Shown here one piece after another: positions 20,152 to 60,795 of a DNA stretch of 64,000 nt. Numbering within the stretch: the first letter of the stretch is position 1; each line of letters begins with the position of its first letter. A program made the translations under genes and the position numbers. This DNA comes from Isoetes taiwanensis (lineage: Eukaryota > Streptophyta > Lycopodiopsida > Isoetales > Isoetaceae): positions 8,323,424 through 8,387,423 of the forward strand of contig JAJEKV010000053.1 of assembly GCA_021234155.1 (NCBI GenBank), given 5' to 3'. Under the pieces are notes generated by a model. The model worked only from the letters and a program-made list of their open reading frames with translations. It did no database searches and was not told the DNA's origin.

Positions 20152-20960
20152 TGTAGCGATGGTTGCAGTATGCTTGCTTATGGCATTCCGAGAAAGCTGG
20201 ATTTTCCTATTCTCAGATGCCAAGGCCCCAGCAAAGTCGTACAAACCATCATATGCTGCCTTAATGATGAAGGCATGCATAAAAGAATGATCGAGCTTGA
20301 GCTGCTCCTTACTGATTGCAGACTTTCTGCCATTGCTTATCTTGGTCAGTGATTGGCTTTTCGTACTGTCAGAGAAGATGAAATGCGGGCCAAATAATTA
20401 CTGCAACATCATTGATGTGGTGTATACAACATGCAAGAGCTGATCTGTGATAAAACACAGGTTGAAATGGAATTTCAAAAAAATTATCACACTGTCATTG
20501 ACAAGCTCTTTGAAAAGTATATGGTGGAAATGGTCAAGAACAGAGTTAAACAAACAAATTGCTAGGCCTGCACCTAGAGTGATTGAAAAGGAGAAAGAAC
20601 AAGCTCCAGAAACACTAGTGTTGGGCAACACATTATTTAACTGTATGGCCATGGGATTGGGCACCAAAAATACAGATATAGAGGAGCCAGTACATGTCCC
20701 AATGCATGAACCCATGCAATAAGATATTGATGCTGAAAATAGAGAGAAGGAAATTCTGTTGGAAAGGGAAAGAAAATTGGAAGACTATAATGCAGAATGC
20801 AATGCTCTTCATCTCACCAACACTGCACTATTTCCTATGCTCCCACCAAATGTAATAGAGGCATTTGCAGAAGAGCATGACAATTGTCCTTTGGGAGCAC
20901 AGGTAATTTAGACACTCTTGCACCCATATCTGAACTGGCTTGCCAGTTTATGGCGGATCT
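20152..20960 (+). pseudogene. Decayed coding segment, possible relative of the RT locus N-terminal part
   Basis: Three successive open stretches in different frames read as protein. 20170-20352 contains KVVQTIICCLNDEGMHKRMI, a second contains VIDKLFEKYMVEMVKNR, and a third (20447-20722) contains APRVIEKEKEQAPETLVLG, followed by an acidic-basic coiled stretch. The first block resembles NVVQILICCIKDRRVHEHIQ at 51092-51424 on the minus strand. Both share VVQ-x-x-ICC-x-x-D-x-x-x-H and are followed by a helical stretch. If real, this is a relic of a paralogue of the 46.8-53.9 kb RT locus. The similarity is judged by eye over about 25 residues. Confidence 0.35.
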
Positions 20961-29644: not shown

Positions 29645-29952
29645 CTTGTGGAATTCTGCAACCTCAAATCTGATGCTTGGGAAGCTGTTTGCTTTGATAT
29701 ATCTAAACCAAAGTGGCTGAAACCATTATCTATCAACTCAACAATATTGGAAGCCGCATAAGAAGGATTGGAATTGGCATATAGAAGTGGAAGGATCTGC
29801 GATAGAATACCATTTTTTGTCTGATGATATGGTCTATAGCAATCAATATGAATATATTTTAGAGCCGTCAATGGTTTAAGACACACAACTTGTAGCCGAA
29901 TGGCATACTTTTTTGCAACTGCATAGTGGCTTTGGCCACTTTGGAGAAACAT
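29645..29952 (-). pseudogene. Thumb fragment of an rvt/Penelope-like reverse transcriptase
   Basis: The fragment reads LKYIHIDCYRPYHQTKNGIL, then SQILPLLYANSNPSYAAS and IDNGFSHFGLD. It aligns with LKYIHASSCRPYHQARNVIL, SQILPFIYVNSCPSKAGS and IDNGFDRHGL in the larger RT locus at 46781-47290. This block follows the YxDD motif in that RT class. Only this part survives, and it runs directly into LINE copy 2 in the same orientation, either by insertion of the LINE or by chimeric retrotransposition. Confidence 0.75.
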
Positions 29953-39769: not shown

Positions 39770-42713
39770 TCACCAATAATCACCACAAGAACAAATTCCA
39801 TTCTTGAAGTGATGGAAGCGATGAGAGTCTCTAACAATAATGTCTCTATTAACAATTTTTGAAATGAATTTGGTGGCAGCATGACAATCCCCACATGCAC
39901 GAAGATTCTTTGCAATGCGCAGAGGCGTTCCAGGGGGTGTACTAATAAGCCCAAAGGCAATTGCCAATTTCTCGCTATGGTAACAAAGTAATTGTACTTT
40001 CTCCTCATACACATTATGCAACACAAAGCTTGTGTCAGGTACATAACCAGCATCCCTCATCAGACTAGTTAACCTTTCAAGCTCAGCATAAATCTGTTCT
40101 GCCTGTGGATGAGAATGATCCTCTGCAAAGAACTCATGGATTTTACGTCCTACTTCAATCCAGCTGCGTCCTGGTAGCTTCTTTGCTCCGTTGTCAATCA
40201 TTGCTTTTCTGACACTCGCGGCCTCATCTAACCTTCCTGCTGCAATCAATATGTTTGCTAACTGTATATATGGAGCAGCATTCTTTGAATCTAGCTCTAT
40301 AGCGCGTTGTGCAACACGCTTGGCTCTGTCAACATCATGATGAATTCGACAAGCACCAAGTAAAGCAGCCCACATCACAGCATTAGGAGAGAGAAACATA
40401 TTACATAACATCCCCTCTGCATCATTTAGATGGCCTGCTCTTGCAAGTAGGTCAATCATGCAACCATAATGCTCCATACCTGGTCTAGTCCAATGGCAGT
40501 TCCTCATAAATTCGAAATAATAATGACCATCATCAACCAACCCTGCATGGCTGCAAGCTAACACATTGATGAAAGTAACTCTATCTAAATTAATGCATTC
40601 CTCCTGCATTTTCAAGAAAATCTGGAGGGCCGTAATACCATCTCCCTGTTGAGCATAAGCTGCAATCATGGCATTCCATGTAACCAGATTTCGTTTGGGC
40701 ATCTCATCAAACTTCTTATGTGCTCTGTTAAGGTGACCACATTTTCCATACATGTTGATAATGGCTGTGTCCACAAACATCAAAGTCAAATCCATTCTCA
40801 GTGATATAGGCACTGATGATGGTGCCCTCTGTCAGGGCAGCAAGGTTCGCACATGCATCCAAGGCACTAACACAAGTAATCTTGTCTGGAAACATACCTT
40901 CCTGTTGCAGTTGTTGAAAGAGCTCAAGCGCTTCTATCGGCTTGTCATGCTGAACATATGCCGCAATCATTGAGGTCCACAATACTACATCCTTGAAAAG
41001 CATTTTATCAAAGACCTGTTGGGCTTCCAATAGACTGCCACACTTACTGTACATATTGACTAGAGCAATTGTCACAGCAACATCGTACTCATTTTCCTTA
41101 CCTATAAAATTAGCATGGAACAACCTGCCATCCATTAATGCAGAAGCATTTGAGCATGCATTGAAAATGCTAGTAAATGTAATCCTGTTTGGTTTAACAA
41201 CTTGCCCATGCATGTCCCTAAACAATAAGATTGCTTCTAACAACTATGTTGAGCATATGCCGTAAACATTGTATTCCAGGAAACCAAATCACGTTGGTAA
41301 AGCTTGTCAAAAACACCACGTGCACTTTGTATGCTTCCACATTTTCTGTACATATTCATAATAGTATTACTAAGAATGATATCTGACTCAAACCCATTGT
41401 CAATGACATGCTTATGAAGTAACTGACCTTCTTGGAGAAATTCTGGACTACAACATGCATCGAGCATGATAAGAAATGTAGCCTGGTCGGGACCACAAGC
41501 ACATTGTTGCATCTCATTAAAGAGCTTAAGAGCTTCTTTGCATTTTTCATGCTGGGCATATGCACCCATCATGGCATTCCACGTGCCTGTGCATGTGCCT
41601 GTGCCTTGCTCCTGCATTTTCTGGAATATTATCTGAGCATCATGCAAACTTCCACACCTTGCATACATTTCAATAAGGGCGTTGCCAACCATAGCATCTG
41701 ACACCCTGATGCAAAGTATATAAGCATGAAGAAAACCACCATATGGAAGACTAGAACACGCATCAACAACACCGAGAAGGGCTCTGATCTGGTTTTATAG
41801 AACTATATTGCATCTGTCTAAATAGACTTAAAGCATCTTTGTCATTTTTCTCGGTATTTGCTGCAATCACTGCATTCCAAGAGACTAGATCATGTCTATG
41901 CATGCGGTCAAATACAATATAAGCTTCTATAGTACAACCACACTTTGCATACATGGTTAAAAGAGCAGTAGCTAAGACGTCATCTGAATACAATCCAGAT
42001 CTTATAATACACGCATGAATTTGTTTGGCATGAAACAAAACCATTGGAGTCAATTGTGCAGAAATAATATTAATAAATGTTACTTTGTTGGGATTTAGAG
42101 ATTCTTCTTGCATCTTATAGAACAGACCCAGTGCCTTCAGAAAATGCTCATGCTGGGCACATACTGCGATTATGGCATTCCATGAAACAATGTCCTTCTG
42201 TGGCAGTGTATTAAACAATCTGTAGGCATTATCCACAGCCTCACACTTTCCATACATATCGATGAATGCATTACCTACAACAGTATTTTTCTCAAACTTA
42301 CTTGTAATACTGTGAGCATGAAGTTTTTTGCCATCTGCAAGATCCTCTGGACCAGAACAAATGCTTGGAATAACGATAAAAGTGATTCTGTTTGGTTTAA
42401 TTCCTTCTTGAGACATCTGTAAGAACAAATCAAGAGCCCCGTCAAAAAATCCATGACGACAATATGGAGCAAGCAGAGAATTTCAGGAGACAATATCTTG
42501 CAAATGACCTATCATCTCAAACATCCGTCTTGCGTATTTGAAGCTTCCGCATTTTCCATACATGTTAAGGAGTGCATTTCCCATAACCACGTCCTTTTGA
42601 AGGCCACAACCAACAATTTGAGAGTGAAACAGTTTCCCACCTGACAACCTTGCCGATGGCCTCCATGCATCCAAACTTCCGGTTAGCCGGTATGCACAGC
42701 AGCCGCCTGGCAA
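39770..42713 (-). pseudogene. PPR-DYW type organelle RNA-editing factor, broken
   Basis: PLS-class pentatricopeptide repeat proteins with a C-terminal DYW cytidine-deaminase domain edit C to U in plastid or mitochondrial RNA. Repeats with GNALLNMYGKCGS, DIVSWNAIIAVCAQHE and similar blocks run through the whole locus. The C terminus has the E/E+ region and a full DYW domain: PGRSWIEV near the start, the deaminase signature [11 protein letters not shown], then [12 protein letters not shown] and terminal SCGDYW. The protein lacks introns but changes frame about four times, near 42480, between 41705 and 41770, near 41240 and near 40770. The N-terminal part before 42713 is missing, including any organelle transit peptide. 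The last frame (39770-40813, 347 aa) is intact and carries the catalytic residues. Either it is a pseudogene or the assembly carries indel errors. Confidence 0.9.
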
Positions 42714-42762
42714 CAGGGATGACCTAACATTTACAGCTTACAGCAGGTTTTTAACAGTTTTT

Positions 42763-42858
42763 GGCATATTCTAGGTATATGCTAGCATATACCATGAATA
42801 TGCCAAAAACCCACATAAACAAGGGATTGCCCCCCTAGGAGCAACCCAAAAAATGGAT
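42763..42858. repeat. Palindromic repeat module, copy 2, with perfect nested hairpin
   Basis: Arms GGCATATTC (42763-42771) and GGTATATGC (42774-42782) pair with GCATATACC (42785-42793) and GAATATGCC (42796-42804). That is 18 bp of perfect pairing, broken only by a 2-by-2 internal loop and closed by TA. A second hairpin, GGGATTGCCCC / GGAGCAACCC, follows at 42823-42847. The module directly adjoins the truncated 5' end of the PPR-DYW relic. Confidence 0.8.
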
Positions 42859-43460
42859 GAAAACATACTCTTGCGAAAGGTAATGACACAATGTAAAATA
42901 TTTTCAATGGCATGCAGAAACATCTTAGACTGTAGGTTAACTTTGTCAAAGAAATGCACAAACAAAAAGGCAGTTAAAGTAGGGCCGAAATCTCACTATG
43001 CTACTTCTCGTCTTGCCACATGTTTTGCACAAGACGAAATTGTCCTCCTTCCTAATCGTGCCGCCACAAGCCCCGGCATAGCATTATAAGCAGACCAAAC
43101 CAGTCGTCCACATGAATTCTATTGTTTTGGATGCTTGGCGAAACCCTACTTGCATCTGTAAGTAGCACTAAATGATCCATCTGCCATTGCGACCAGAGCA
43201 AATTTTCCAGAGCAAATCCACATAATCCGGCAAGACATGTCCAGACGCACAGTTGGAAAAGAGGAAGAAATACAGACGAGATCGACATCCTTCTAGATCT
43301 CCATGTCTATTTTAGTCAATTTTTTATTTTCATGACGCAGGATGCATAAAATAGAGATCTAATGGTAGAACATGATACCAACTCAGATTTTGATGATGTG
43401 AAGGTGACATGTGGATAGGCTAGAATTGCAAGAAAGGCTGCAGGCTTGGTTAGGCTGGTG
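42859..43460. other. Spacer between PPR relic and duplication A
   Basis: No exon or repeat is recognised. It ends at an A run (about 43470-43486) that marks the edge of the large duplication. Confidence 0.4.
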
Positions 43461-44576
43461 GGCTAACAAAAAAAAAAAAAAAACAGCTAATCCTAGCCTT
43501 AGACAAAAGCCCATCTAGAATTAACGTCTGCATAAGTCAATCCTTATACAACATGATCAACCCACACAATTATAATGAGTACAAAATCTTAAAAAAGGCC
43601 AGTCCCAAATGACTTACTTTAACAAACTGAATGACCATTTCATGTCCTGCCACTAGTATGACAGATTAGATCAGATCAAAGTTTAAGTTATATGGATACA
43701 CTGAAATGCATGGAAAAGTCTGCTACATGACTGAAATGGTAGATGTATCTATGATATAAGAGGCACTGAACCCATGGGTACAAAACATAGCTTGTCTTTA
43801 AAGTACGGCCATTTTTTCTTAAAAAAACCTTTTGGGCTTCCCATATATTAGATGTAGCATAACAGAAGCAGATACTACATAAACAAACACATAGTCATGA
43901 TGGTGAAGCAGAATGCATGCTCCCTCTTTCTTGTCTCTGCAATAGTTCTGTCCACCTTTTTTTATAAAGTCCGGTTACTCCAATTTGAACACCTTCTACC
44001 AGACAAACACCAACAAAGCAATAAAGCGACAAGGGAAGGAGAACAATTCGTACCTGCAGCCAATCATCAAAACATTAGCAGAAAACTGGTAATGATTGAA
44101 GGGCCAAAAGGTACATGTGATTACTCTCAGTTTATCACATTTCACCCCTTGTATCCCATTACAAATCATTAGTCCTATCTCGAATGTAGTATAAATAACA
44201 AGCATCAAAGGCAAAGTACAAACCATGTAAGGATATATTTAGGGGCAGTGCATCTTTCGAGCAATGTAGACATCATGTGTTTATAGAGAGACATGTGTTC
44301 CAAGCCATTTATTCTGTGGTAAATAGATACTGAATTTAAACATTTAATATGAAAGTTACCTGATCATTGTCATGGTCTGATACAAAGCCCTCATTATCTT
44401 GTGTTTCTGGAACGGAAATGATATTTGCCCCAAGTCCTAAAACGTGCTGGATCTTGTTATGCATGGCATCCCCTGAGGGTTTTTTTCTTACTAACAACAT
44501 CCACTGACTCAGCCTTACCATGTTTTTGTCCATGAGTATCATGTTCTTTAGCCATCAGGGCACTGCTAAAGCAGCT

Positions 44577-46036
44577 CCTACACTCTTTGGTTTGTACATT
44601 GATCAATTAGAAGAATGGCTTGATAATCATGGCGGCGGAGGTCCACATTTGGCACACTATATCATTAGGCAACTTATGTATGCTGATGATGTTTCACTTC
44701 TGGCACATACCGCTGCTAGTATGCAGCAACATTTACATGCTCTGCACAGTTTTTGTGAGAACACAGGTCTGCGTGTTAATCTCCAAAAGACCAAGCTTTT
44801 GGTAGTTCAATCTTTTCGTCACAATGTTCCTCCTATGCACTATGATAGCCGCGAAGTTGAAGTGTAGATAGCTACAAGTATCTTGGTGTAGAATTCTGTA
44901 AGAACACACTTTGGGAACAGTGTATTACCAAGTGGGTGGCTGCTGGATGGAGAGCACTCTATGCAATGCAAAACAATTGTTTTCGCGCAGAAATTCATGA
45001 TTGGCCACGGAAAGCCCACTTGTTTCGGGCTTTGGTAGAGCCTATTTTACTGTATGGTTCTGAAGTGTGGGGGCCTGCCATTAGTGCTAGTGCTTGGGAG
45101 AGCTTGGAGCGGGTGCAAAAGTCCTTTCTCACTTACAACCTCGGAGTTAAAACAACGGTGCCCTATGCTATTCTTTTACAAGAGACAGGTTTTTGGCCTC
45201 TTCAACATTCTGCCATGAAGCGCCATCTCGATTATATCTGCAAGGTGCACCACATGGATGATGTTAGGTATCCTGTTCTTGCACTTGCGATGGCTAAATC
45301 TCCTCAGCATTTGAAACGATGTTGGAAAGAGCATTGCACTACATGGTTTGCCCGTTGGGCTGTGCAACCAGAGCACTGCCCGATGCTTGCCAGTTCTGAT
45401 CCTGAGCTTTTACAACAATATCTCAATGGTCGTTTTTCTCAAAAGATATGGGACGCAGTTACTTTGGCCCAAGTGAAAACTGGTCATTATCATGCACACA
45501 TAAATCCCACCTTGGCACCAGGGCCCCAAGCTTATTTGCTTGCTTCATTGTCCAGGAACAAGCTTGTAGCTATTGCATCAATTCGCACAGGGTCCCACAG
45601 GCTACGGATTGAGGCATGTAGATGGGAGCGGCCGCAATTGCCGCGAGAAGCGAGACTATGTGCATGTTGCCAATTACAGGTTATTGAAGATGAAAGCCAT
45701 ACTCTTCTGAGTTGCCCTGCTTTTGAGATAGTCCGGAATCATTTTTTGACCTTAGCATTCCATTCCACGCTTCCACAACTTTTCAGAGCACCATCTGTGC
45801 ATGACTTGGCATTATACATACTTGAGGTTCTAGATAAACGTCTGCAATTACTGAGCCCTCAGTAGTATTATCTCCGCTTGTCTAGTATCATCATTACTGC
45901 AAAGGTTTTTCCCTTGAAAACCTTTCGAGGCAGGGGTTTTTTTACTCCTCGTAGTAATGATTGTACTAGCCCATTGTATGGGTCCCATGACCTATTGGTC
46001 TCCGTGGACGTTAAAAAAACTATTCTATTCTATTCT
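44577..46036 (+). mobile_element. LINE copy 3, inserted in repeat A
   Basis: The element starts inside RT motif B (PTLFGLYIDQLEEWL) and continues through motif C (YADDVSLLAHT) in 44520-44867. After a frame change it runs on in 44936-45865 (309 aa) with LLYGSEVWGP, LLQETGFWPLQHSAMKRHLD and the CCHC-like CACCQLQVIEDESHTLLSC. The 3' UTR has the double hairpin and an (ATTCT)n tail. Comparison with repeat B fixes the 5' junction after GCAGCT and the 3' junction before TTTTCAATATGCAC. B has about 31 bp here (53744-53774) that A lacks, so integration was accompanied by a target deletion and not a duplication. Confidence 0.9.
45890..46022 (+). other. LINE 3' double-hairpin module, copy 3
   Basis: Arms ATCATTACT (45890-45898) and AGTAATGAT (45953-45961) pair over 9 bp and differ from copy 1 by compensatory changes. 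The loop contains CCT-TTCG-AGG where copy 1 has CCC-TTCG-GGG. The second hairpin is GACC-TATT-GGTC (45989-46000), then TTAAAAAAA and the ATTCT tail. Confidence 0.75.
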
Positions 46037-46622
46037 ATTTTCAATATGCACAGTATTGAGGCGCTCAAGATCAGAGGAAGATATAAAATTATCAGGGTCG
46101 GAATATGAATCCATTTGTATGCAGCTATTAAGGTTATACGAAATCTATAATCTAGGTCAGAAGTGCCTGTCTGTTCTTCATAAATATCTTAGTCTCGAGG
46201 CAATCTTTTCCAGCAGAAAATCTGTGAAAATCAATGATAATACAAGTGGTACTGTAAATCTCTGGAAAGGATTCATACCTAAGATCATAGGGAATGCGAA
46301 CCCATCTTTAAAGCTATCGGCTGGTCATCCGGCATTCAGATCCGATGCCTGGCTGTAAATCCATATTCTTAACGAATATCCTTAAGGTAAAAATAATCCA
46401 TTGTTTTGTGTAACAGAACCCTAAAATATACTATACCTGGCTATAATTAATAGTCATGTCTTAAAAGCCATACACATAAACATAGAGGTGCAATTTAAAA
46501 GTAGAATTCCTTATGTAATATGCAACAACAATCCTAAAAGTTCTCTATGTATAACTAGATTTAAAGATATATTTATTGGAGAAGGTTATAGTTCCCTACT
46601 GGACAACCATATATCAAAAGAA

Positions 46623-46780
46623 AAAAAAAATGCTACCACCTCCCGAAGGAAATGTTAAGACCTCTGTATTAATCTGTAATGATAGGGAGGGCTGACCCCT
46701 ACCATTACAGTTGAGGTCATACCACTCCCTTTAGCAATTGCATACCCAATCAGAACCTTATATAATTTAAACACACTACC
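46623..46780. other. 3' flank of the RT locus
   Basis: A short AT-rich segment between repeat A and the last RT frame. A small inverted repeat, TGTAATGATAGGGAGGG / CCCTACCATTACA-like, occurs near 46675-46710. Confidence 0.4.
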
Positions 46781-49700
46781 TCAGATATTCTGGATAATCT
46801 CTTGCTTCAATACTTCAATGTCAAACTTGATTCCAGGGAAATTACTGCATTGGATATATTTGATCACTCTGCTCTTCAAGCCATGGCGGTCAAAACCATT
46901 GTCTATGAATTGTCGTATCAAATTAACAATATATGAACCTGCTTTACTGGGGCATGAGTTAACATATATGAATGGCAAGATCTGTGATAGGATAACATTA
47001 CGAGCTTGATGGTATGGCCGACAACTACTGGCATGAATATACTTCAAAGTAGTAAATGGCAAAGAGTCTCTCTTATCATATTTATATGTCCAATATGACC
47101 CGTTTGTTCTCACGATAATCTCAATACACATATTAAGAAAGTTAGCCTTCTGTCTATATGAATATTTATTTTCCGTCCCATGTAGCATTCCTGTTTCCTC
47201 TTTGATTTCTAGAGTGTCTAGGTCATAGATCCATACATCATTATTGTCCCCCTTTGTGACCTTTTCCAAAACATTCTGATGATGGGGCAATTTAAGGCCA
47301 ATAAATCATCCATATATCTGTAGACATATTTAAACATTTCCATTTCTTTATAACTGCCTTGATTTGCTAGTTCCTTGATGAAACTCATTTCATACCATGC
47401 TAAAAAGAGGTTACACCGGCATGGACTGCACGAGAACCCCATGGAGATACCACTGATCTGTCTCCAAGATTTACTGCCCATATGGATAAAGCAATTGGTT
47501 AAACCCAACAATTAGCATTTATGAAAGGTTGACAGCCCATTTTAGTCCAGCACTTACTAGTAGGAATATATTTAAACCATTTAGCTGTAAATTTGTTATC
47601 TTTAGTCCTTTCCACCCATATCTCATTCTTATGGTGCTTGCTTTTATTCCATTTCCATGCAGCCTCTATAACCAAGGAGATGACTTTACAAATCCCCTTA
47701 TCTCCAAACAATGGGATTGTCTCATAACATTTTGTTATGTCTGCTACATAAACTTCATGGATTTTGTTAGGGACGTTTACGATGACATCATAAATGGAAT
47801 TAACCATCCAATTGGAATTAACACTATGAGGGAATAGAGTACTGACCTTGGCACAAAGCATTTTAGAAATATCAGACCATGCCTCTGTTATGTCATTAAG
47901 GATTGCAATAATGATATCAGCAATCTCTATATATAAGTACCATGGGCGTTAGTTATCCATCTGTAATTCTTCTTATGGGCTTTATACACCCCGAGTAAGT
48001 ATGGTAATTTATCGTATTCGATATCAATTTGTCCCAAGCGATCCTGTATGTCTGCCTTAATATTTGAGACCCATTCTCAACTGTAGTATTAATAGGTAAG
48101 AAATCCTTGTTGTTTAATCTTTCTATTGCTTTGTTCCTAATATACAACAGACAAATGAAGCAAGTATTATTTGTAGCTTTATCTACCCCTGAGATATATA
48201 GGTTCTTCCTTAACCATTCTAGATTTCTGGTGATACTTGAATCACTCAATGGGAAGAGTCTATCGCTGCCAGACTTGGTAGCATGGTCTACTTCTTCCTT
48301 GATTCTACAACATATCCCCTGCTTATTTCTTTCTTTATCATTATCAGTAATAAATGGGAACTGAAATCTGTGTAAATCGAAGAAAATATCACACATGCTT
48401 TGTATTTTTGCTTTTAGTTCCTTCCAAACTAACTTCCTGTCATGAATATTATTGAGTCCCTTTCAGAAGAAATTTCTAAGGCCTTTATTCTTCACAATGT
48501 AGTAATTCTAATATGTTCTGCTTCTGGGTCAATGAATGTTTGAAGATGGGGGATCTTACTTGGGCATGCAATCTCGTCATTTTGGGCAAAGATCAAATAA
48601 GGTTTGTAGCATAAGTCCCTAAGTGTCTCAGAATATCTCCATGAAAACATGATCTCTTTCATCATGAGTTCCCCATTGTAATGGAAAATCTCAGTCATAA
48701 CTTCATCAAATATCTGTGGGATGCAGATTTTATCTAATAGCTTGGAAAGAAAGGTAGAATGGATGATTTTCTTTTTATTTTTATCCGCACATGTAGTTAT
48801 ATGCAACCTGCCCTGACAGTCCCTAACAGTCTTCTTAATGATCTAAAAAAATATTACTAAACAAAGTTATTTAAAACCCAACAATAAGACCATTAGAATC
48901 GCTCTACAATCTGGTAGGATAGAAAAATTTAATGGGCCAAGTGGCATATATATGGATAGCTTCCGTTCAGAACTATGTTATGTTTCCATCGAAAGTACCA
49001 CAATTGAGTAACTAAATGCAACCGTGTATAAAAGCAATTCAGTGAAAATTCCTTGCATGCATAATAATAAATGATATGAGTGTAACTCACCCGGATTACT
49101 TGTGGTATGTCAGTTTCTGTACCGTCCCATCCTTGTAATTGTCCATTCCCGGTTTGCTGCCCTTAGTAACAGAGTGTCCCATGTTAATAGATGTGTTTAG
49201 CCCTTCCAATGTTTCACTATCTGAGGCATTAGTAATAGCTTTTGTAGGTGCCATGGTGATCCTAGGTGGTTCATTGATTTTGCGGTTGTGGCTGGTACGA
49301 CTCTTAGGTGCAGTTTTGCCATACTTACTAACTCTTCCACTACTATTGCTAGCTGAACCCTCATTTGATTTAAGGAAAGACTAAGGTTTAATACTCTTCT
49401 CACATATGTCGACTAGCATGCACAAGGGTCCACTGCCATTTGCAGTGCCATATCGATAAGCATACGTCTGTCAACTAGATCTGGATTTCAAAGTGGTCTT
49501 GATGCCTGTTCTGAAGGCCACCATTTGGCCAGCAACAGTCATATCAGGATAGATTTCATCAAGATTATTAAACATATATCAGATAGCTTGGTCAAGCCAT
49601 GTCATATTATCCTTACACTTATTGTTGTCGACATTACCCCTTATAGGTTCGCAGATGCATTTGAAATACGGGCAGAATGTTCTCCATATTCGTTTTAGAT

Positions 49701-50012
49701 AGAAGTCTCCTTGTGGTTCGTTTGGGTATGCCATATGTCCTTTCTGATTAATGTAAATAAATTCTGTTTTATCATATGGCTTATCAAAGAACCTGTGGTC
49801 AATCCGAAATTTGACTCTTTCTTGTTTGACAAGCTTCTCCATCTTATAAGCAGCAGTCCTAGATGCTGCCAGTTGAGCAGGTGTAATATTATCGAGGGTA
49901 ATCCATTCTTCCTCTGTAATGGATGCTAAGGCTCCAAAATTCTTGGATCTCCAAATAAATACCTTGATTGTACAAAATAGAATAGCTTTCCACAATCCTT
50001 TGGGGTATGATA

Positions 50013-50884
50013 GGAAGGAAGGAAGGAAGGTTCTTTTATCGTCCCCGGAGGCCAATCGGCCTATGGGACCCAAATTACACGGGTGCAGCAAGCCCGTTGC
50101 TACCCAGATTAAAAAACCCCCCCTTAGGAGGGAAAAACCGTCGCAGCAACAAGCCTGCTGGCAGCTGTACAAATATACATATAGACATGAATTCCCGGCA
50201 CCTCAGGTAGGCGCCCGGGGGCAGAGGTGAGTCCGCAGATCCAAAACCTCCTGGAGGTAGGAGCCAAGGGACCGAACTGACGGCGTACTGAGTAGCTCGT
50301 GCAGGGGCAGACCAGATCGCACCAAGAGAGTGTAGCGAGCCCGAATCTAACTATAGGCTGGACAGCTATGGAAGGCATGGCTTTCATCCTCAACAACCCC
50401 CAGCATGCAACACTGACAAAGCCTGTCCTGGTGCAGCTCTCCAACCCACCGACCCGTCTCAAGCCGAAGATGGTGGGCCCCTGTTCGAATGGACGCGATG
50501 ATCCTGTGCTTCTTCATGGGCAACTGAGAACGCAGGTAGAGCTGTGGGCCTCGAACCAGGGTGGGCTTTATGCGCTGTTTGTAGTGTGCCACCTTTACCT
50601 GTTCCAGAGCATCGTGGTCCCAGAGCTTCCCCAGGAAACAAGAGTCCAAGTACCCCCTCAGCCTATCCCGGCCGGTGTCTGTGTGCACCTGGACGCACCT
50701 ATGTGCGTCTACGTTCCAGCGCGCTAGCTACTGGGCGCTCTTGTCCTTCCAACAAGCCCTAAGTCGTTGCGGGCTCATCGCCACAGCGTAAGCCAAGTGC
50801 GGGAGCCGAGTGTCGCCCATGCTGGCCACCTTCTGGAAATAAACAATGTGTCTATCGAGGGCCGCATGCTGCAGGGGCCATGTG
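50013..50884 (-). mobile_element. LINE copy 4, inserted into the RT locus
   Basis: A heavily 5'-truncated copy beginning at WPLQHAALDRHIVYFQKV and keeping only the C-terminal region (50347-50688, with LRGYLDSCFLGKLWDHDALE and CQCCMLGVVEDESHAFHSC). Its 3' UTR has the double hairpin, with arms GTTGCT and AGCAAC (plus 50145-50150 and 50096-50101) and AGGCC-GATT-GGCCT (50049-50062). The tail is (TTCC)n, plus strand 50013-50030. Protein-like sequence of the RT locus stops at its 5' edge (ending DFSFNLANC) and resumes beyond its tail (YPKGLWKAIL), so it inserted into a coding region. It is the best-preserved relative of copy 1 at the 3' end. Confidence 0.85.
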
Positions 50885-52036
50885 ACAGTTAGCAAGATTA
50901 AAGCTAAAATCATCTTTGTCAATCTTATTACCTCCCGTGATCCTGCCTTTAAGAGTTTCTTTGTCTTTCTCTGACAGCAAGTTCTCTCCAATTGGGTCTT
51001 CCTCTTCATCAACATCAATATTTTGACTCTCCTCGAATGTTAATTTTTTAATCTCATTGGCCTTTTCTAGTGCTGTCAGGCCAACAACAAACTATTTATT
51101 GCTTTTATCCTCTTCTTGTGTCCACTGGTATATGAGGTCTGGTAGTGCTTCATAGAGGTTGTCAATAATATTGACAATATTCTCCAAGGTATCACTATTT
51201 CTGTTAATGACTGGGACCTGCTTTAACCATTCACTAAAGCCCATATGTGATATGCATAAAAACTCTCCTGGTCCCCTCAAGCTTTCTCGAACTTGTATGT
51301 GTTCGTGTACCCTTCTATCTTTGATGCAACATATCAAGATTTGTACAACATTGCATGGGCATTCTATGTTACCCTCATCATATCCAAGAGCAGTGAGTTC
51401 TTTGTCCCATATGGGCAAATTCATTTTAAACCATCCTGTTACATGAACAGTATAAAAGTAGATTCAGTCATGGTTAGTACCCAAAGTAAGTATTAATAAT
51501 GCCTAGAATTCCCTATTTACCGAAGGAAAAGAGCATCAACAGTAAAACTAGCGAGTTCAAGTACCAAGAAAAAAAACCCAGCCAATCCTACAACTAGAAT
51601 TAACGTCTGCATAAGTCAATCCTTATACAGCATGATCAACCCATACAAAGCCTAGGCAGTCTTAGATGGTACTCTAATTCCTTAGTTTCTTTATCAAATC
51701 ATGAAATCTTACCTATAAACCATAATATATCATCCTTACTATAGATAAACCTTTAAACACCTTCGATATCTCAGATGTAAGCTTTATTAAAAACTATGCA
51801 CAATATTAAGTCTCTCAAACCTATGTATAAAAGAGACAACTTGTAATACAGACTGCCTTAAGATTTTCTTAGAAAGAACCTCTGCAGTACTGGAAATCCG
51901 TATCCGTTTCATAATATGCTCAGATAGTGATCTGAACTATTGTGACATGTGTTTCTTGTGTGGACCTAATCCATTTTTGTAATTCCAGGCTTAAAAGTAG
52001 AACCGTATATCTGTAATTGTGTGTTCAAAACTCCAG

Positions 52037-52060
52037 TAGATAGATAGATAGATAGATAGT
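52037..52060. repeat. (GATA)n microsatellite
   Basis: About six GATA units inside repeat B, in the part missing from repeat A. Confidence 0.9.
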
Positions 52061-52783
52061 AATAAGGGGTAACCTCTTTTATTTATCAGACACAATTCAA
52101 CAGCTTATATCTAGTATTTATCATGTCATCTACAGTGCAAGACCATAGTGCTATGTCAAATGCAACCTTCATTATTAGTATCTGTTATAATGAGTGTGGA
52201 AACATCAGAAAGCCAATGCACAATGATTTACTTAGCAAATCGAAATGACATTACAACAAAGGTTCTAAAAAACAAAGGCCAAGCCTAAGTAGGGCATATT
52301 TACTAGCTTGCAGCCCTTTAACCATTTTTCATACAACCCTTTGGAAAACTAACCTTCATTCACAATTTTAGTTATAATGAGTTAAAAAAGGCCAGTCCCA
52401 AAGGACTTACTTTAACAAACTAAATGACCATTTCATGTCCTGCACTAGTATGACAGAAGATCAGATCAAAGTTTAAGTTATACGGATACACTGAAATGCA
52501 TGGAAAAGTCTGCTACATGACTGAAATGGTAGATGTATCTATGATATAAGAGGCACCGAACCCACGGGTACAAAACATAGCTTATCTTTAAAGTATGGTC
52601 ATTTTTTCTTTAAAAAACCTTTTGGGCTTCTCCCTCTTTCTTGTCTTTGCAATAGTTCTGTCTATCTTTTTTGATAAAGTCCGGTTACTCCAATTTGAAC
52701 ACCTTCTACCAGCCAAACACCAACAAAGCAATAAAGCGACAAGGGAAGGAGAGTAATTCGTACATGTAGCCAATCATCAACAC

Positions 52784-53165
52784 ATTCAAGAATGGGGCTC
52801 GCATGAAACCAACAAACCGCCGCCCGTAGGCTTCTCATTCATCTCACCAGATTTTCTACAATGGTGGATAGTGGGTAGCCGCACACATGCGAACTACCCA
52901 TGAAAAAATAAAGGGAATATCTAATTATATAATTTGGACCCCATAAAATACAATGGTAATAGATGTCTGGCTTGTGTACCTGCCGAAAGCTTATCACCGG
53001 GATTAAAAAACCCCGCCCTTTCGAGTTTTCGAGGAAAAACCCGCGCCTAAAATAGTGATCTCCAACCAGAAAGGGCATGCGCCGCATGCATGCATGCATG
53101 CATGCAAGACATGCATGCTCGCCCCATTCTAGAATGGCGATCCGATGTCTCGGATCGATGGGATT
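52784..53165. mobile_element. 376-bp insertion with ATT duplication, inverted repeats and a LINE-like hairpin loop
   Basis: Repeat A has an empty site (CAAAACATTAGCAG), while B has 376 bp between two ATT triplets (52784-52786 and 53163-53165). Near the ends, AGAATGGGGCTCGCATG (52789-52805) is matched in inverted form by GCATGCTCGCCCCATTCT (53114-53131). A perfect hairpin, CGATCCGA-TGTC-TCGGATCG (53138-53157), lies beside the right end. Inside, on the minus strand, is the GGTTTTTCC...GGGGTTTTTTAATCCC loop typical of the LINE 3' ends, with a short ATCAC/GTGAT stem, and a GCATGC microsatellite. It has no coding capacity. The 3-bp duplication hints at a DNA transposon relative, but the family is unknown. 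Confidence 0.6.
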
Positions 53166-53452
53166 AGCAGAAAACTAGTAATGATTGAAGGGCCAAAAGG
53201 TACATGTGATTACTCTCAGTTTATCACATTTCACCCCTTGTAGCCCATTACAAATCATTAGTCCTAGCTTAAAATAGAAGGAGAAGTATAAACATAATGA
53301 AGCTTAGGATCTTATATCCCAAATGTAGTATAAATAACAAGCATCAAAGGCAAAGTACAAACCATGTAAGGATATATTTAGAGGTAGAGCATCTTTCGAG
53401 CAATGTAGACATCATGTATTTATAGAAAGACGTGTGTTCCAAGCCATCTTAA

Positions 53453-53484
53453 AAATTCATCTTATCTTATCTTATCTTATCTGT
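53453..53484. other. Possible extreme 3' tail of a LINE: TTAAAAATTC plus (ATCTT)n
   Basis: Repeat A reads CCATTTATTCTGTGG, while B has about 30 extra bases, TTAAAAATTCATCTTATCTT and further units. This resembles the ends of LINE copies 1 and 3 (TTAAAAAAA or GATAAAAAAT followed by a pentanucleotide or hexanucleotide array). A LINE insertion truncated to its tail would explain it; slippage alone would not supply the TTAAAAATTC part. Confidence 0.35.
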
Positions 53485-54310
53485 GGTAAATAGACACTGA
53501 ATTTAAACATGTAAATATGAAGGTTACCTAATCATTGTTATGGTCTGATACAAAGCCCTCATTATCTTGTGTTTCTGAAACGGAAATCATATTTGCCCCA
53601 AGTCCTAAACCGTGCTGGATCTTGTTATGCATGGCATCTCCTGAGGGTTTTTTCTTACTAACAGCATCCACTGATTCAGTCTTACCACGTTTTTGTCCAT
53701 GAGTATCATGTTCTCTAGCCATCAGGGCACTGTTAAAGCAGCTATCAAGACTTTCCTTACACCACATAATTTCTTTTTCAATGTGCACAGTATTGAGGCG
53801 CTCAAGATCAGAGGAAGATATAAAATTTTCAGGGTCGGAATCTGAACCCATTTGTGTGCAGCTATTAAGGTTATATGAAATCTATAATCTAGGTCAAAAG
53901 TGTCTGTCTGTTATGTGAAAACTAATGATAATACAAGTGGTACCGTAAATCTCTGCAAAGGATTCATACCTAAGATCATTGGGAATGCGAACCCGTCTTT
54001 AATGCTATCGGCGGGTCATCCGCCATTTGGATTTGATCTTCTTAATGAATATCCTTGAGGTAAAAATAATCCATTATTTTGTGTAACAGATGCCTAAAAT
54101 ATACTATACCTGGCCATAATTAATAGTCATGGCTTAAAAGCCATACACATAAACATAAGGGTGCAACTTGAAAGTAGAATCCCTTCTGTAATATGCAACA
54201 ACAATCCTAAAAGTTCTTTATGTATAACTGAATTTAAAGATATATTTGTTGGAGAAGGTTATAGTCCCTACTGGACAACCATATTTCAAAAGAGAAAAAA
54301 AAATAAAACT

Positions 54311-57018
54311 TATCAAGACATGTCCTGACTCTAAAACGAAAATTTCTAATTTAGTCTTCAATTAGCAGCATTAGAATACATTAGTGTACATATATCTAAG
54401 CAATGATTTGGCACCATAAAACATGTTGAAAACAAGTAGCCAAACTATTTTATAATCAGATTTCAAATACATTAACATGAAATCAATCCAACTTATGGGC
54501 AGAAAGCTTTTGTAACCAATCTAAAACTTAGTTTAAAAAGGTAAAGAATAATAGAAAAGTAGCAACTCCACAGATATTTGAAGAAACTTTATACGTGAGA
54601 TGCTCCACAATATTGATACAAGAATATATCAGTGCAAAAGATCAAAAGATCCTGTTACCTGCAGCAAACCAACCAAAAAATTAGCCTGTTGGATAATTAT
54701 GGAAGCACTAGCAGGTGTCATGGGATCCTTTATCCCCTTCACTCTGCCTGATACACAGGAAATTTAATAGCATAAAAAGAGAAGTTAAAAGTATAATTTA
54801 CTAAGCTGCAAATGAGTGAAACATATGGTGGTATTTCATTTTCATAGTACCACATAAACTAGGTGATTGAAGTCCTTTCAACAACTATACTCCACCACTA
54901 GCACTATTTAGATAGATAGACTACTGATTATACTTCCAAAGATGAACTAGCCAGAAAAAATCTCAATTAACTATTAAGTTTAAGATTAAAATTGTAACAA
55001 ACGGTATACTAATGATAGACATGCCTGAGCTTAAAGAGATTCCTAGAAGATAATTGAATCAAGATATAAGTAATGTTGCGTTGGAAAGAGAACTTCAGAT
55101 TATATGTTAAATTTCTGCAAATTACACTCTATCCAGACCTGCAACCAACCTAGATTCTAGTTAAGCAGGTCAAGGAAATATACAGTCCGATTGAGTTCTT
55201 AGCTATTTAGTGCATATGCACATTAGACTTTAATGCTCTACAAATATAGATCCCTTCAGATCTGGTAACCAATCGGACATTCTAGTTCAATATGCTAGGA
55301 AGAGAAACAGATAAACGCTTTTCCTAGACCATTGCAATATTTATTCCAGAGTATATTTATGTATAAGCGTCTATAAAGATAACAGATATTCAAACCTGAG
55401 ATGGTTGATTGAGGCCAGATGCCTCCAAATTGGGCGAGTTGGTCTCCATAGTAGGTGTGCTGTTAGAAGCTTGATTGCCCTGGTTGGTCTTGCAGCCAAC
55501 AATATTGCTACATATTCTAAACGAAGTGCACCCTGGACTACCACAGTCGTCGGATTTGTCGATCTTACGACCCAGAGTGTATGTTGGGTTCTGTAAGCAC
55601 CTCTCTTTTCGTTTATAATCATTTATGATTGGAGGCGTCTATGATTTTGAAATATGAAATACGCTTTCGCCTAAGGTTTTGATGGAATATCGAACCTCTA
55701 AACGGCTTTACCTAAGATTTTAGAATATGAAATACAGGGACTCGAACCTCTACCAAAATAACTCAATGTCCTAATAAAACTATACTTTAATCAATATACC
55801 CAATGAGGTAATGTGATTATTTTTTATCTTGAATCTATGTTTTTTTTTATAACAACCCATTCAATTGTTTTAGGGATGTATGGTCTGTAGTTTCAGGAAT
55901 TGTTATCTATAGATACATATCAATTTCCCCTGGAACCCCCTGTTATTTTGCTACATATTCTATCTCAGTACTTAGCAAATTGGTATTGCTTTTGAGATTT
56001 ACTCCAGCATCTTAATTTCCCTCAAGCTTTCCAAGATGCTTCAGATCTTTATCAGCAGTGGTATTTGCCTCCAGGTCAATTGTTTTTTGCGTAGTACATA
56101 ATGGTGCATGGAAATCATACAACAACTTACGTTGGCATTCTGCTTCTTTTCCTCATCAAGCTTCTTTCTAGTGGAACCATTCAGGTCCCCTTTCTTTCTC
56201 CCCATTGCAGTGGGGTATTTGGATAGAACTGGGCTGAGAGCCAGGCTTAACACAAATGCAAATGCATCAGACCTTAAGAAGCAACCTAAATAGAGGACTT
56301 CTTTGGATATGTTCTTAGTACTGACGGCCTTGTAAAAGAATTTTAGTTCTACGCTTGCTTCACCCTCACAGATTTATAAGAAAAGATATTTATGCATGAA
56401 AATGACCAAAGGTTTTTAGAAAAGATCATACTAAAATGCTTAAAAATAGCTCCTCCAGTTAAGCCACTGTCGTAAGGGCAATTAGGTCAAGCCCATTATC
56501 CTTGCATGTTCTGTGAGCCCTAAAATATTCCTTGGAAAACTTAGGCAATAAAATGATTTATTTATCATTATTATTATTTTTGTTTTAACAAGTGGTATAT
56601 TCCGTGGTCAGGTACAAGTGATGTATCTACCTCATGTCATACTGATTCCAAGGTTATGCATTTAAACTTCTGCTTGCATATACCCTGGGTTTAAAGACAA
56701 AAAGAACAATTAGATAATTAATATAAAAAAAAAACTTAAAATAGAGTAGGATTTTTAATTTTTAGCATTTAGCTTTTGAGCTTTGAAGACAGATGGGCGG
56801 CATGACGGTGGATGTGGCAGATGGGGCGATCTCTTTCTTATCCAACCGCAGGTGCAGGTGCATGAGCTTCAATGGCAAATATCGACTTGTATGCAGGGCT
56901 GTAGATTTGATAGCTTTGCAGATCAAGAGACAAGAGTTGCAATCAATTGTTGGAGCACATAGGTTTTGTTGTTAAAATGTAATCACAATTCTTCATCTGC
57001 ACAATTATTCATCACCGG
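54311..57018. other. Spacer with one dispersed repeat
   Basis: No exon is supported. The segment contains the dispersed repeat at 55517-55735. Short frames near 55371-55622 and 56041-56293 occur on both strands and show no family signal. Confidence 0.45.
55517..55735. repeat. Dispersed repeat, copy 2 of 2
   Basis: This is the partner of 31573-31790. The inverted repeat in this copy is GTCGTCGGAT...ATCTTACGAC, so one arm pair differs from copy 1. Confidence 0.8.
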
Positions 57019-57218
57019 TAAGGGTGCTTTCCCATGAATTTGCAGACCTGAAAAAGTCGTACTAAGGTCAAAAACCTGAGGCTCAGAATTGTGTGGAGAA
57101 TACTTTGCGACTCAGGTCCTAAACCTGAATCAAGCAAGTAAGGCGCTCATGGGAACACCGGAGTCTTCGGCCTGACAAGAAAATCTCCAGGTTTTAGTCC
57201 CATGGGAAAGCACCCTAA
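57019..57218. mobile_element. Tourist-like MITE 1 (PIF/Harbinger type)
   Basis: The element (57022-57215, 194 bp) has terminal inverted repeats GGGTGCTTTCCCATG and CATGGGAAAGCACCC. It is flanked by TAA on both sides (57019-57021, 57216-57218). A 3-bp TAA/TTA duplication and GGG-starting ends are the hallmark of PIF/Harbinger MITEs. No coding capacity, so mobilisation would need a transposase from elsewhere. The near-perfect ends suggest moderate age. Confidence 0.93.
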
Positions 57219-57351
57219 GAGGGATTCACTATGATTTCTCCTTCAGGCAAGCTGCTTGCCGAAACCTAAGCTATGTGTTGAATTAGAGCAGAAGAATTGG
57301 GAAGAGTGTCAATCGGTTGCAAGATCTTGAAGGGTGAAGGTTATTCTTTCT

Positions 57352-57554
57352 TTAGGGTGCTTTCCTATGGATCTCCGACCTCAAGGTTTTCTTGAGGTCC
57401 AGATAAGGGCGCGCAGGTTCCCGTGGGTGCCTCAACCTCAAAGACTCAGGTTTTTGACCTGAATAAGAAGTAATCACCAAGCATTTCTTAACGCTGAGGT
57501 TTTTGACCTGGACCCAGATTTCCAGATCGCCAATCTCATGGGAAAGCACCCTTA
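57352..57554. mobile_element. Tourist-like MITE 2 (PIF/Harbinger type)
   Basis: The element (57355-57551, 197 bp) has ends GGGTGCTTTCCTATG and CATGGGAAAGCACCC and is flanked by TTA (57352-57354, 57552-57554). It shares termini, size and internal CAGGTTTTTGACCTG-type motifs with MITE 1, only 136 bp away, but the interiors have diverged. Two insertions of one family this close suggest a preferred target or local transposition. Confidence 0.93.
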
Positions 57555-59056
57555 GCACTTGGTTGCAAAATCGTGGAAGGAAGGTATCTGCTTCAATTGG
57601 TTGCACAAACATATAAGATTGAGATTGAGATCCCACGCTCAATAGCTTCTGGTTTCCAACATAAACATGCAGCGAGAGGGCAATCTAACAAAGAGATTAT
57701 GTACAAAGGGTGAAAAACCAAGTTATGATCATAGCAGAATCAACAGCACAGTCAAAACTAGGATCATCATTTTCAACAACATAGTAATAGCAAAGCACCC
57801 ATCCAGGGGTTTTACTGCTTAGCCCTGGCCATGAAATGAATCCTAGTGAGAGCGGCGCTCTGCAGCAGACTCCTGGATTGATGTCCTGAAACCCCATCCA
57901 TTCCTTTCTATTACTCCTTCTATTATGATTTATGCGCTTTTTTTTTTTTTTTTTTTTTTTTTTGATCATCCCATTCATCTCCTTGTTCTGCCATCCTTTT
58001 CAATCTTGAGAAAAAACCATTGAATAGTATTCTGGTGGTTCTCCCCTCCCTTTTTATTTTGTTGCCCATCGATGGTTCTTTTGAACACTCTTCTGCCCCT
58101 CCACATAAGCCGAACAGAAGGAAAGAAAAATAAGCTTGTTAAAGAAACAACAAAAAAGGATTCGCAAAATTGCTAAGAAGAAAGCGTCTCAATAAAATAA
58201 AGAAAATGTTTTTCTTGTGCTTTGTCTCGAAAACAAAGAGGCTGAAAAAAAAAAATCTAATTTTACCATACAAAAACAAATTGAAAATGTTTCTCCTATA
58301 CTGAAATACCAAACCATAGTGTACGCCCTACATGTAGCCCTCCACATACCATATGATTATGGGCAAAATATTGCCCAGAATAGCAACTTTAACCAACTAG
58401 TTTGGCCAAACCATTGGAAACTTGACCCAACTAAATTTGTTTTCGAGGTTAAGGCGTTGTGGACCTATGTTCATTATGCAGGGGACGTTCTGAAGGGAAG
58501 AGTCTCTTATGCTGACCACTTTCTAACATTATATTATATGGTCTGACTTTCCAAAGCCGTTCTTTGCAGGGGCAGAAAGCCAATCTCTTGCAAAAAAAAA
58601 GGCATAATCTTCACGCCTAACCTATCTCATTCCGGGAAAAGAACACCTACCATATCCACTACCCTTCTTTTAATTACGCTTCGAACATATTGAGAGTTGT
58701 ATTCAAATACAATGCAAATATCATAAAGGATGGCACAATGTAATAATTCTTTGCACACATGTGCTTGCATGTGCAAGACATATACTTGCACGTGTACATA
58801 GACGAGTACATACATTTTGCACATGAAGCGGAAGACAAGACAACAAGCTTTAAGAAGAAGCTAACCTCATATTCTTATTTTAGATGTCCAAAATGTAAAA
58901 GATGGCAGAAATTGACACACGCGATGACATCATGTGATGATATAATTGTCTTTGATTGTAATGGTTTGTTAATTTAAGGATGGTTTTCCTACAATTTGCC
59001 ACATAATGTATTATAGCACAAAGCACGTGTGTTTTACTTACTAAAATGGAGCATCA
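57555..59056. other. Spacer without recognised gene
   Basis: It contains a T run of about 23 at 57940-57963. A 109-codon frame at 58217-58546 with PYDYGQNIAQNSNFNQLVWP has no recognised family. Nothing else is supported. Confidence 0.4.
57939..57963. repeat. Long T homopolymer
   Basis: About 23-25 T follow ATTTATGCGC. This may be the poly(A) tail of a minus-strand retroposon, but no matching target-site duplication was found. Confidence 0.6.
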
Positions 59057-59234
59057 GGGTTATCTAAAACACACCGTTTTATCCGCTATAAAGATGTTAG
59101 ACATCTTGTATCGATTAAAAGAATACTTCTGATGAAGATAAGGGCGGGTTATCTAAAACACACCGTTTTATCCGCTATAAAGATGTTAGACATCTTGTAT
59201 CGATTAAAAGAATACTTCTGATGAAGATAAGGGC
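59057..59234. repeat. Perfect 89-bp tandem duplication
   Basis: Units 59057-59145 and 59146-59234 appear identical, each starting GGGTTATCTAAAACACACCG and ending GAAGATAAGGGC. Each holds a short hairpin, AAGATGT-TAG-ACATCTT. It lies about 550 bp upstream of the likely TTM promoter. Confidence 0.93.
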
Positions 59235-60795
59235 GCCGAGTCGTATTATAAGGATTGATTGTATGGTGTCAAGGTAACAAGATGCTCAGGTGTGCACAGA
59301 TGAAAGATACAATATATATCATTGAGGTAAGGGTGTAGAAAATGGAATCCCATGGTCTAAAATACCAAATACCAATAAATAAATGAACAAGAATGCCCGT
59401 TCAAACCTTGGAGGGTGCAAAACTAAACCATTGTGGTGCTTGTAACTTGCATAACATCATATTATAGTGCACAAAATTCCACGTCAGTATGCTACGTCAG
59501 CCCTATTTCGTCATGAAAGTACAATACGGTCAATGCGTGCCCTACCTTTACTGGCTAAAATTACTCTAGGAGATCCGGATCTGGCACAGCGTAGGCCAAC
59601 GGCTGGGATACTCAGCCAATTGCACGTACCCTTTCTGGACGGCTCCAATCCCGCCACCTCACTCGTTGGATCCACCGTCCGTTTGAGCGAGCGAAAACGG
59701 ATTTCCACGAAAAGATCCAAAGGTGTGAAAGATCTGGGCCTTTGAAGGCCCATGTAAGCAGTAAATGCTGATGAGCTTGGTGAAGAACACGCACCGCCGT
59801 TTCTATATACATGGATTCTTCTCTTCCAGCGCCAGCCTTCTTGTTTTTGTGATGCGGCGATCCTTCTAAATTTAGGCAATCCGGTTTGAAGAATCTTGTT
59901 TCTGGGCATTGATTTTTTTTTCTTCGATTATTCGCCGATCCTCATGTTTATGTCGATGGCCTTTTTCTTTATGGGAGATCAGTTCTAGGTTTTAATTAGG
60001 ATCATCCATCTTGTTATACGTTTCTTTTGCAAAAAGTGTTTCGGATAGTGCCTGATATGGGCTGATCACGACAATGTTGATATGGCACGCATACTATTGC
60101 ATGTGAAGGATTGTTCTGGTCTTAAATTGCTTTTGGCTGCTGGATTCTCTTTCCCCAGCACTGATCATGAAATGAAGAGAAATTAGTATTTGGGTCCTTT
60201 AGTTGAAGAATCAGAATTGGATTTCAGCAGCATATTGAAAGCTTATTTCTTAATGGTTCTTGCCTCATGCAATGCGGATCGGCGTGAAGCAACCATTTAG
60301 TCCTTTTATGGTAACTCAGGCACTGAACTTGTTTAAATTGTTGAAACGCTCGTGTATTATGTTTGATCTGGAAAATTCCTTTTTCCAGTTCGATCTCTTC
60401 GGCCAGCTACGGGTTTGTAACTGGTCTTTGCCGTATCTCCTTATGGCCCATCAATCGCATACACCTATGTTGCTTGAAACGCAGCGTTCTTCGTGTCTTA
60501 TTTGTCTTCAAATACTTTAGTACCTCGTTTGCACTTGTTCTCGGAAGTGCGCATGCATTGGTGCTTCAATTATCAATGATTCTGTTAATCCGGAAGGCAA
60601 GTTCTGTCCCGTGTTCTGTACAGACTAGTAGATACTATATACCAATTAAGTATCAAGCTTGTCTGTCAACCAATGCTTATTCTTAAGAGCCCTGCATTTG
60701 TTGAAGGCTTGGCTCTTAAGCTTGGCTCTTCACCTGGGGCTACAGACCCCATCCAACTTTTTCCAAGTTGTGATTTCTCAGACCAAGAAACAGAC
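59235..60795 (+). other. Promoter and 5' UTR region of the TTM-like gene
   Basis: No separate gene is supported. From about 59760 the sequence has promoter character (TATATA at 59804). The CT-rich, CCAGCGCCAGCC-containing stretch after it resembles a plant 5' UTR, and the T-rich sequence up to 60790 probably contains a leader intron. Confidence 0.45.
59804..59809 (+). promoter_or_regulatory. Possible TATA box
   Basis: TTCTATATACATGG lies about 25-30 bp before a CT-rich stretch suited to transcription initiation, about 1 kb upstream of the TTM-like coding start. It is a weak prediction from one motif. Confidence 0.35.

Follow-up and report, generated by a model that had tools for sequence, protein, structure and literature searches.

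A probable Penelope-like retrotransposon family without a detected GIY-YIG endonuclease in the lycophyte Isoetes taiwanensis

Introduction

Chlamys and Naiad, reportedly described by Craig et al. 2021, are said to be Penelope-like elements (PLEs) with an N-terminal GIY-YIG endonuclease, a CxC linker and an IFD. PLEs of this type are present in the lycophyte Selaginella. Here, we analyze a reverse transcriptase (RT) element on the minus strand of a 64,000-nt stretch of the Isoetes taiwanensis genome (hereafter, the window; assembly GCA_021234155.1, contig JAJEKV010000053.1, positions 8,323,424 to 8,387,423; C1060:8323424-8387423 in our searches). Judged by its anatomy and by known motifs, the element is quite likely a degenerate copy of a multi-copy, intron-retaining Penelope-like retrotransposon without GIY-YIG.

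Described hallmarks of PLEs are pseudo-long terminal repeats (pLTRs) that include the start of the open reading frame (ORF), partial tandems and intron retention (PMC3846280), and their RT is characterized as telomerase-like (PMC11167929). Plant PLEs are reported to be patchy, with Dryads in conifers and endonuclease-lacking, EN(-), PLEs in both conifers and Selaginella; EN(-) PLEs are tabulated for Selaginella, Pinus and Picea (PMC9033089) and described elsewhere as telomere-associated (PMC3846280). The rvt genes are presented as domesticated and as containing a large insertion loop, 2a (PMC5718144). The life cycle of PLEs is described as poorly known (PMC9033089).

Results

Identity of the reverse transcriptase

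A sequence-only reading of the window had placed RT motifs on the minus strand in the order fingers, A, B, catalytic motif and thumb, and all of them are present in that order. The fingers motif GVDKATNNTCFIC lies in the minus-strand frame 47953-48462 of the window, motif A (ADITKCYETIP) in 47499-47948, motif B (GISMGFSCSP) with the catalytic YRYMDD in 47218-47511, and the thumb motif YKYDKRD in 46781-47305. In profile searches, the palm piece of the window matched RVT_1 (E 6.1e-4), as did all 12 frames aligned from other copies (best E 2.3e-7); given these matches, the motifs are real and not due to chance. The RVT_1 bit scores, where printed, were 20-29.5, just under the curated cut-off of 29.6, compared with 144.5-150.2 bits for the top 150 RTs listed in the same genome, which marks the RT as genuine and as distant from the main long terminal repeat (LTR) and long interspersed nuclear element (LINE) types. 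Together with a rough tree in which the family stands apart from the Gypsy and partial LINE references, the low scores support the earlier view that the RT is of neither LINE nor LTR type: what was found, in place of best hits to LINE or LTR RTs or a palm inside a LINE clade, was a weak RVT_1 match and a position apart from the partial LINE.

A CPC motif, which we take to be the same CxC as in Chlamys and Naiad, occurs in the RT exon in 10 of 10 aligned rows reaching that position; the window copy reads CPS in its place. The spacing between motifs A and B is 97 aa in 12 of 12 aligned rows and exceeds, by eye, that of two bacterial RTs compared, a spacing that does not in itself show homology to the IFD. 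Ratios of nonsynonymous to synonymous substitution rates (dN/dS) were 0.08, 0.11, 0.13 and 0.51 in four close pairs with unsaturated dS; judged by these values, the RT is under purifying selection. Among the exon-2 and RT comparisons together, three more distant pairs showed synonymous saturation and yield no ratio.

Copy number and arrays

The genome searched comprised 1,658,258,908 bases in 1110 contigs. The related loci that the earlier reading had proposed to count proved numerous, with at least 150 matching the palm piece (best 150 scored of 2147 first-look candidates), at least 150 matching the fingers piece (best 150 scored; 2041 first-look candidates) and at least 83 matching exon 2 of another copy (3809 first-look candidates); counts from these three match lists are lower bounds. 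An open RT frame of 640 aa or more, with no stop within the match, is present in 50 of the 150 palm matches listed, and stops interrupt the match in 13. The label of fossil suits the degenerate window copy and fails for the family: the element belongs, as a degenerate copy, to a large family of retrotransposons and is no rare fossil.

The copies form head-to-tail arrays. Fifteen same-strand pairs of the listed palm matches lie at most 25 kb apart, compared with zero opposite-strand pairs and a chance expectation of 0.34 in all, and the first 2.4 kb of locus L063 recur at 98.5% identity with a spacing of 6.8 kb. Twenty-five of 30 fetched palm-match loci are more than 100 kb from the end of their contig, the contigs not being chromosomes.

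Terminal repeats and unit ends

Besides the window copy, four copies were fetched with both ends, and each of them has terminal direct repeats of 1.6-3.0 kb (identity 93.8, 97.1, 97.8 and 99.0%). The end structure is alike across copies: a unit starts in a T-run that immediately follows the RT 3' end, and its outer 3' end consists of a G-rich stretch plus a T-run ~120-150 nt before the expected start of exon 2. The C1079 copy is without some 30 bases before its T-run. One of the five copies with ends read, C1018, is 5'-truncated with a fixed 3' end, starting within exon 1 and keeping the usual 3' end. The 3' motif was assessed in loci L009-L058 (n = 50), where 35 distinct copies, the window's included, reach the RT C-terminus. 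A variant of CCTACGGNAGGAGGYAGG followed by T6-10 was found 150-235 nt beyond the C-terminus in 34 of the 35; the remaining copy (L036) was matched at another T-run, yet the motif is also present there on closer look. Purine-rich GGAGGYAGG directly precedes the 3' repeat. Hairpins were predicted at the 3' end of the repeat in the inner copy of L062 (z -2.0) and at the outer end in the window (z -3.7), as well as at the unit end of L062 (z -3.3).

Outer T-runs tended to exceed their inner counterparts. At the 3' end, they measured 14, 17, 18, 21 and 16 nt (five of five copies) versus 9, 8 and 8 nt for the inner runs of C1018, C1045 and C334 and 8 nt for that of the window (the C1079 run was unmeasurable). 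At the 5' end, with the truncated C1018 excluded, outer runs of 13, 26, 26 and 9 (window) compare with inner runs of 7, 8, 7 and 10. The lengthened outer runs fit insertion in A/T tracts, with the U-run of the RNA pairing with an A-run primer. By our own reading, the C1079 copy starts right after sequence resembling the 3' end of another copy, and such self-insertion would explain the arrays.

Anatomy of the window copy

The earlier reading had bounded the feature at 46781-53851; the terminal repeats extend the element to 54302 and 43468. All parts of the element itself lie on the minus strand. The pLTR-like 5' terminal direct repeat (51569-54302; direct-repeat families D1-D9 and D11, 90-97% identity) extends from a T-run at 54302 to GGCTGGG plus T8 (51576-51569), with exon 1 inside it, and carries insertions relative to the 3' copy. 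The unit 3' end, CCTTCGGGAGGTGGTAGCA plus T10 (46621-46649), is directly adjoined by the start of the next unit. The pLTR-like 3' terminal direct repeat (43468-46630) ends in a predicted hairpin and T16 with flanking DNA beyond. By our own reading of ORFs, a LINE-like ORF is inserted in this 3' repeat on the plus strand (44861-45862).

What had been described as a spliced RT with several exon-like N-terminal blocks is only partly so. The RT (CxC region, fingers, A, B, C and thumb) is a single exon, exon 3 (48842-46781), which is one open frame of ~690 aa in intact relatives and is split here by frame changes and stops. The exon-like N-terminal blocks do stand, as two predicted exons: exon 1 (53851-53528), a leader starting MGSDSD, and exon 2, or ORF1 (51435-49091; ~520 aa in intact relatives). 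The last codon of exon 1, which is CAG ahead of the GT donor in L059 and L061, is TAG in the window. Exon 2 is disrupted by stops, by a frame change and by an insertion of ~0.85 kb that is LINE-like (50015-50872, the gap between the exon-2 pieces; weak zf-RVT match, E 0.14, below cut-off); its final stop is TAA at 49098-49096, followed by a donor GT at 49090, and its two halves match exon 2 of L061 (tblastn, E 8e-79 and 1e-45).

Elsewhere in the window, a fossil RT thumb (29657-29874, minus strand) and a short fossil stretch of exon 2 (20194-20346, plus strand) belong to the same family. Frames with pentatricopeptide (PPR)-type repeats (39773-42482, minus strand; our own reading, from frames only) end ~1 kb from the element 3' end, and an 89-nt perfect tandem duplication lies at 59057-59234.

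Exon layout and predicted expression

Copies with open frames share three exons: exon 1, which is short and acidic, exon 2, which has its own stop, and the RT exon. The end of exon 2 was readable in 14 of 20 distinct copies (two loci end too early and four frames are broken). Taking the first GT after the stop, picked by eye, as the donor, the stop lies 0-7 nt before it in all 14, in phase 0, 1 and 2 in six, three and five copies, respectively. Exon 3 starts in phase 0 after AG in eight of eight rows reaching its start, and these eight rows have no conserved early Met. Exon 1 ends with CAG before GT, in phase 0, in L061 and L059. From AG/GT boundaries and protein frames in many genomic copies we infer splicing, and the predicted introns are retained in genomic copies.

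Only the junction of exon 1 with exon 3 keeps the frame throughout, so the RT is predicted to result from skipping of exon 2. Alternative splicing would thus yield ORF1p from exons 1 and 2, and the RT from exons 1 and 3. A doubtful variant of the same explanation would have the RT made by stop-codon read-through or reinitiation on an mRNA of exons 1, 2 and 3. In its favor, six of the 14 readable copies carry the stop in the frame of exon 3, five of them with TAG directly before GT; against it, the frames mismatch in the other eight, and exon 3 lacks a conserved early Met.

The exon 2 protein

The stop-to-stop length of exon 2 was read in 11 copies: L081 has 474 aa, and the other 10, including L076, which runs past the end of its locus, have 513-523 aa. 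All of 10 exon-2 sequences share the cysteines C319, C324, C326 and C337 (numbered by the first sequence), and dN/dS values of 0.08, 0.30 and 0.06 in three close pairs indicate purifying selection. A Pfam search with 10 exon-2 members gave nothing convincing (single matches at E 0.026 and E 0.19, none else up to E 1), and searches of NCBIfam, PHROGs and PADLOC with two copies reached E 0.047 at best. The PDB search gave E 0.1 for one copy and nothing below 0.58 with profiles, and no relatives of exon 2 were confirmed in the sequence collections searched. A Copia-type capsid, suggested by phmmer (E 0.1), was rejected as the match vanishes with profiles of four and 10 sequences, the latter giving one other chain (E 0.58). 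AlphaFold models of two window exon-2 pieces, made without an alignment, had mean confidence (pLDDT) of 36.5 and 36.0 and were not used. ORF1p, with its four invariant cysteines, is probably a nucleic acid-binding protein or the source of the cutting function that is otherwise missing.

Search for GIY-YIG

The genome yielded 140 GIY-YIG matches (best 150 scored of 263 candidates). Of the 140 listed, none has one of the 150 listed palm matches within 10 kb, and one has one of the 83 listed exon-2 matches within that distance (9.1 kb off; 0.39 expected). A weak match at C1057:3525618 (E 0.0012) is, by eye, ~5 kb upstream of a match from the fingers list, which was outside the 10-kb count. A Pfam scan of the exons gave no GIY-YIG hit. 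Apart from that weak match, the earlier remark that no GIY-YIG was visible holds, and with the domain looked for and not found, we do not file the family as Chlamys or Naiad.

The possibility that the genome's own GIY-YIG elements are PLEs was rejected, as three fetched loci were without an RT match beyond chance. Two of these three bear helicase-like ORFs by our own reading (positions read: L071 1064-3340 and 3826-4712; L072 1900-2556 and 3995-4891; L070 4601-4987). Repeated GIY-YIG domains near helicase-like ORFs look like a Helitron-type element with a GIY-YIG exon.

Relationship to other reverse transcriptases

In hhalign comparisons with single references, the RT profile gave E 0.0061 and 0.031 for bacterial RTs, 0.0085 for plant TERT, 0.14 for a second TERT-type gene, 0.13 for Gypsy and 0.57 for the partial LINE. 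With a support of 0.990, the tree set the family apart from every reference included (Gypsy, group II-type, TERT and partial LINE). The best match among bacterial libraries was a CRISPR-associated RT profile (E 2.9e-7). No RT relatives were confirmed in viral and prokaryote contigs, and plasmids and phages gave only weak tblastn places (best E 0.3). The family motif, used as a DNA pattern, had one contig hit, a phage by its ORFs, that we judged coincidental; an animal RT motif used in the same way had zero hits.

Two very different telomerase-type genes were seen in the genome, L069 (G000:C1062:4065477) and L068 (G000:C1056:11072773). The one on C1062 is Asn/Thr/Ser-rich and may be a contaminant or transfer; C1062 also has an exon-2 match. 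G000:C163 has 22 rows of group II maturase matches, some rows being fragments of a single gene; in-frame TGA occurs in 19 of the rows, and we read the contig as an organelle genome with many group II introns and RNA editing or a changed code.

Discussion

The family behaves as PLEs do and probably is one of them, its class being assigned by anatomy and not by sequence comparison with PLEs. In the proposed cycle, an unspliced RNA would run from the start of one unit, through the RT, into the next unit, and would end at the G-rich stretch and T-run ~120-150 nt before the next exon 2. An A-run at a break or nick may then pair with the 3' U-run of the RNA and prime reverse transcription, and insertion at the elements' own T-runs would build arrays. 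More tentatively, we envisage a Penelope-type lycophyte lineage devoid of GIY-YIG that has reached high copy number in chromosome interiors, in which a new ORF1, with four invariant cysteines and a role as nuclease or in targeting, would replace the endonuclease, ORF1p and RT would come from one promoter by exon skipping, and the genomic RNA would prime on A/T tracts.

Several observations weigh against a Penelope-like assignment or against this cycle. The reference set of the tree and of hhalign contained no named PLE sequence, the hhalign matches to single references are weak with no preference for TERT, and the tree leaves the references unresolved, with the two TERTs failing to group. A unit-end hairpin was not convincingly predicted in L061 (z -1.4) or in the window (z -0.3), and a covariation test of the unit-end stem gave no support. 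The 5' T-run of the window is not longer than its inner counterpart (9 versus 10), and target-site duplications are indistinguishable from the T-runs. The exon 1 frame is broken in L060 and exon 1 is unrecognized in L062, while the exons and exon skipping are themselves predictions.

Three other explanations were weighed against a Penelope-like origin. The likeliest of them, although still unlikely, is a deep new class of non-PLE retroelements near group II/UG-type RTs in which PLE-like repeats evolved independently; the CRISPR-associated profile as best bacterial-library match, a group II-type RT scoring slightly above TERT and the lack of confirmed relatives in viral or prokaryote collections all favor it, but retained introns, pLTR-like repeats and tandems are hallmarks of PLEs, as is the CxC region. 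It is more improbable still that the family is a new LTR-type retrotransposon with an unusual RT, true LTRs and a polypurine tract in the form of the purine-rich 3' motif. Such an element would account for repeats with fixed ends on both sides and for GGAGGYAGG immediately before the 3' repeat; against it stand the introns kept in DNA, the 5'-truncated C1018 with its usual 3' end, the tandem arrays, ends that are not TG...CA and a search of exons 2 and 3 (Pfam and NCBIfam) that found no RNase H, protease, integrase or Gag domain.

The sequence-only reading had left the choice between an rvt-like cellular gene and a plant PLE. Exon-like blocks, a YxDD palm and NN-type fingers would suit a domesticated rvt-like RT gene, an explanation to which we give almost no credence: copy number refutes it (at least 150 copies), and terminal repeats, arrays and T-run insertion sites point the same way. 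The anatomy favors the other option, a plant PLE.

The family combines a high copy number with open frames, clean ends and T-runs that can be compared between inner and outer positions, and would thus permit tests of how insertion proceeds without GIY-YIG, why introns survive and what role the extra ORF has. PLEs may go unnoticed in a plant genome annotated chiefly for LTR elements. The word "Penelope" is absent from the main text of both the I. sinensis and the I. taiwanensis genome paper, and a literature search, with Repbase and supplements outside its scope, found no paper joining Isoetes, genome assembly and Penelope.

Compared with known systems, the Isoetes family shares with Chlamys and Naiad a CxC region before the RT, a long spacing between motifs A and B that may be IFD-like, pLTRs, tandems and interspersed copies, but differs from them in the lack of a detected GIY-YIG, in a separate ORF1 of ~520 aa, in T-run insertion and in the ORF1 stop at the splice donor. 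Like the EN(-) PLEs (Athena of rotifers and those of Selaginella, Pinus and Picea), it is an RT element without GIY-YIG; those are described as telomere-associated, whereas most fetched loci of the Isoetes family (25/30) lie far from contig ends. Penelope/Poseidon and the conifer Dryads have in common with it pLTRs containing the ORF start, partial tandems and kept introns, but their C-terminal GIY-YIG was not found in the Isoetes family, and an Rfam search of window positions 40000-60000, with one chance-level match only, revealed no hammerhead ribozyme or other Rfam family in the Isoetes element. Finally, the rvt genes likewise have an RT outside the LINE and LTR groups; they are domesticated, whereas the Isoetes family is high-copy and mobile.

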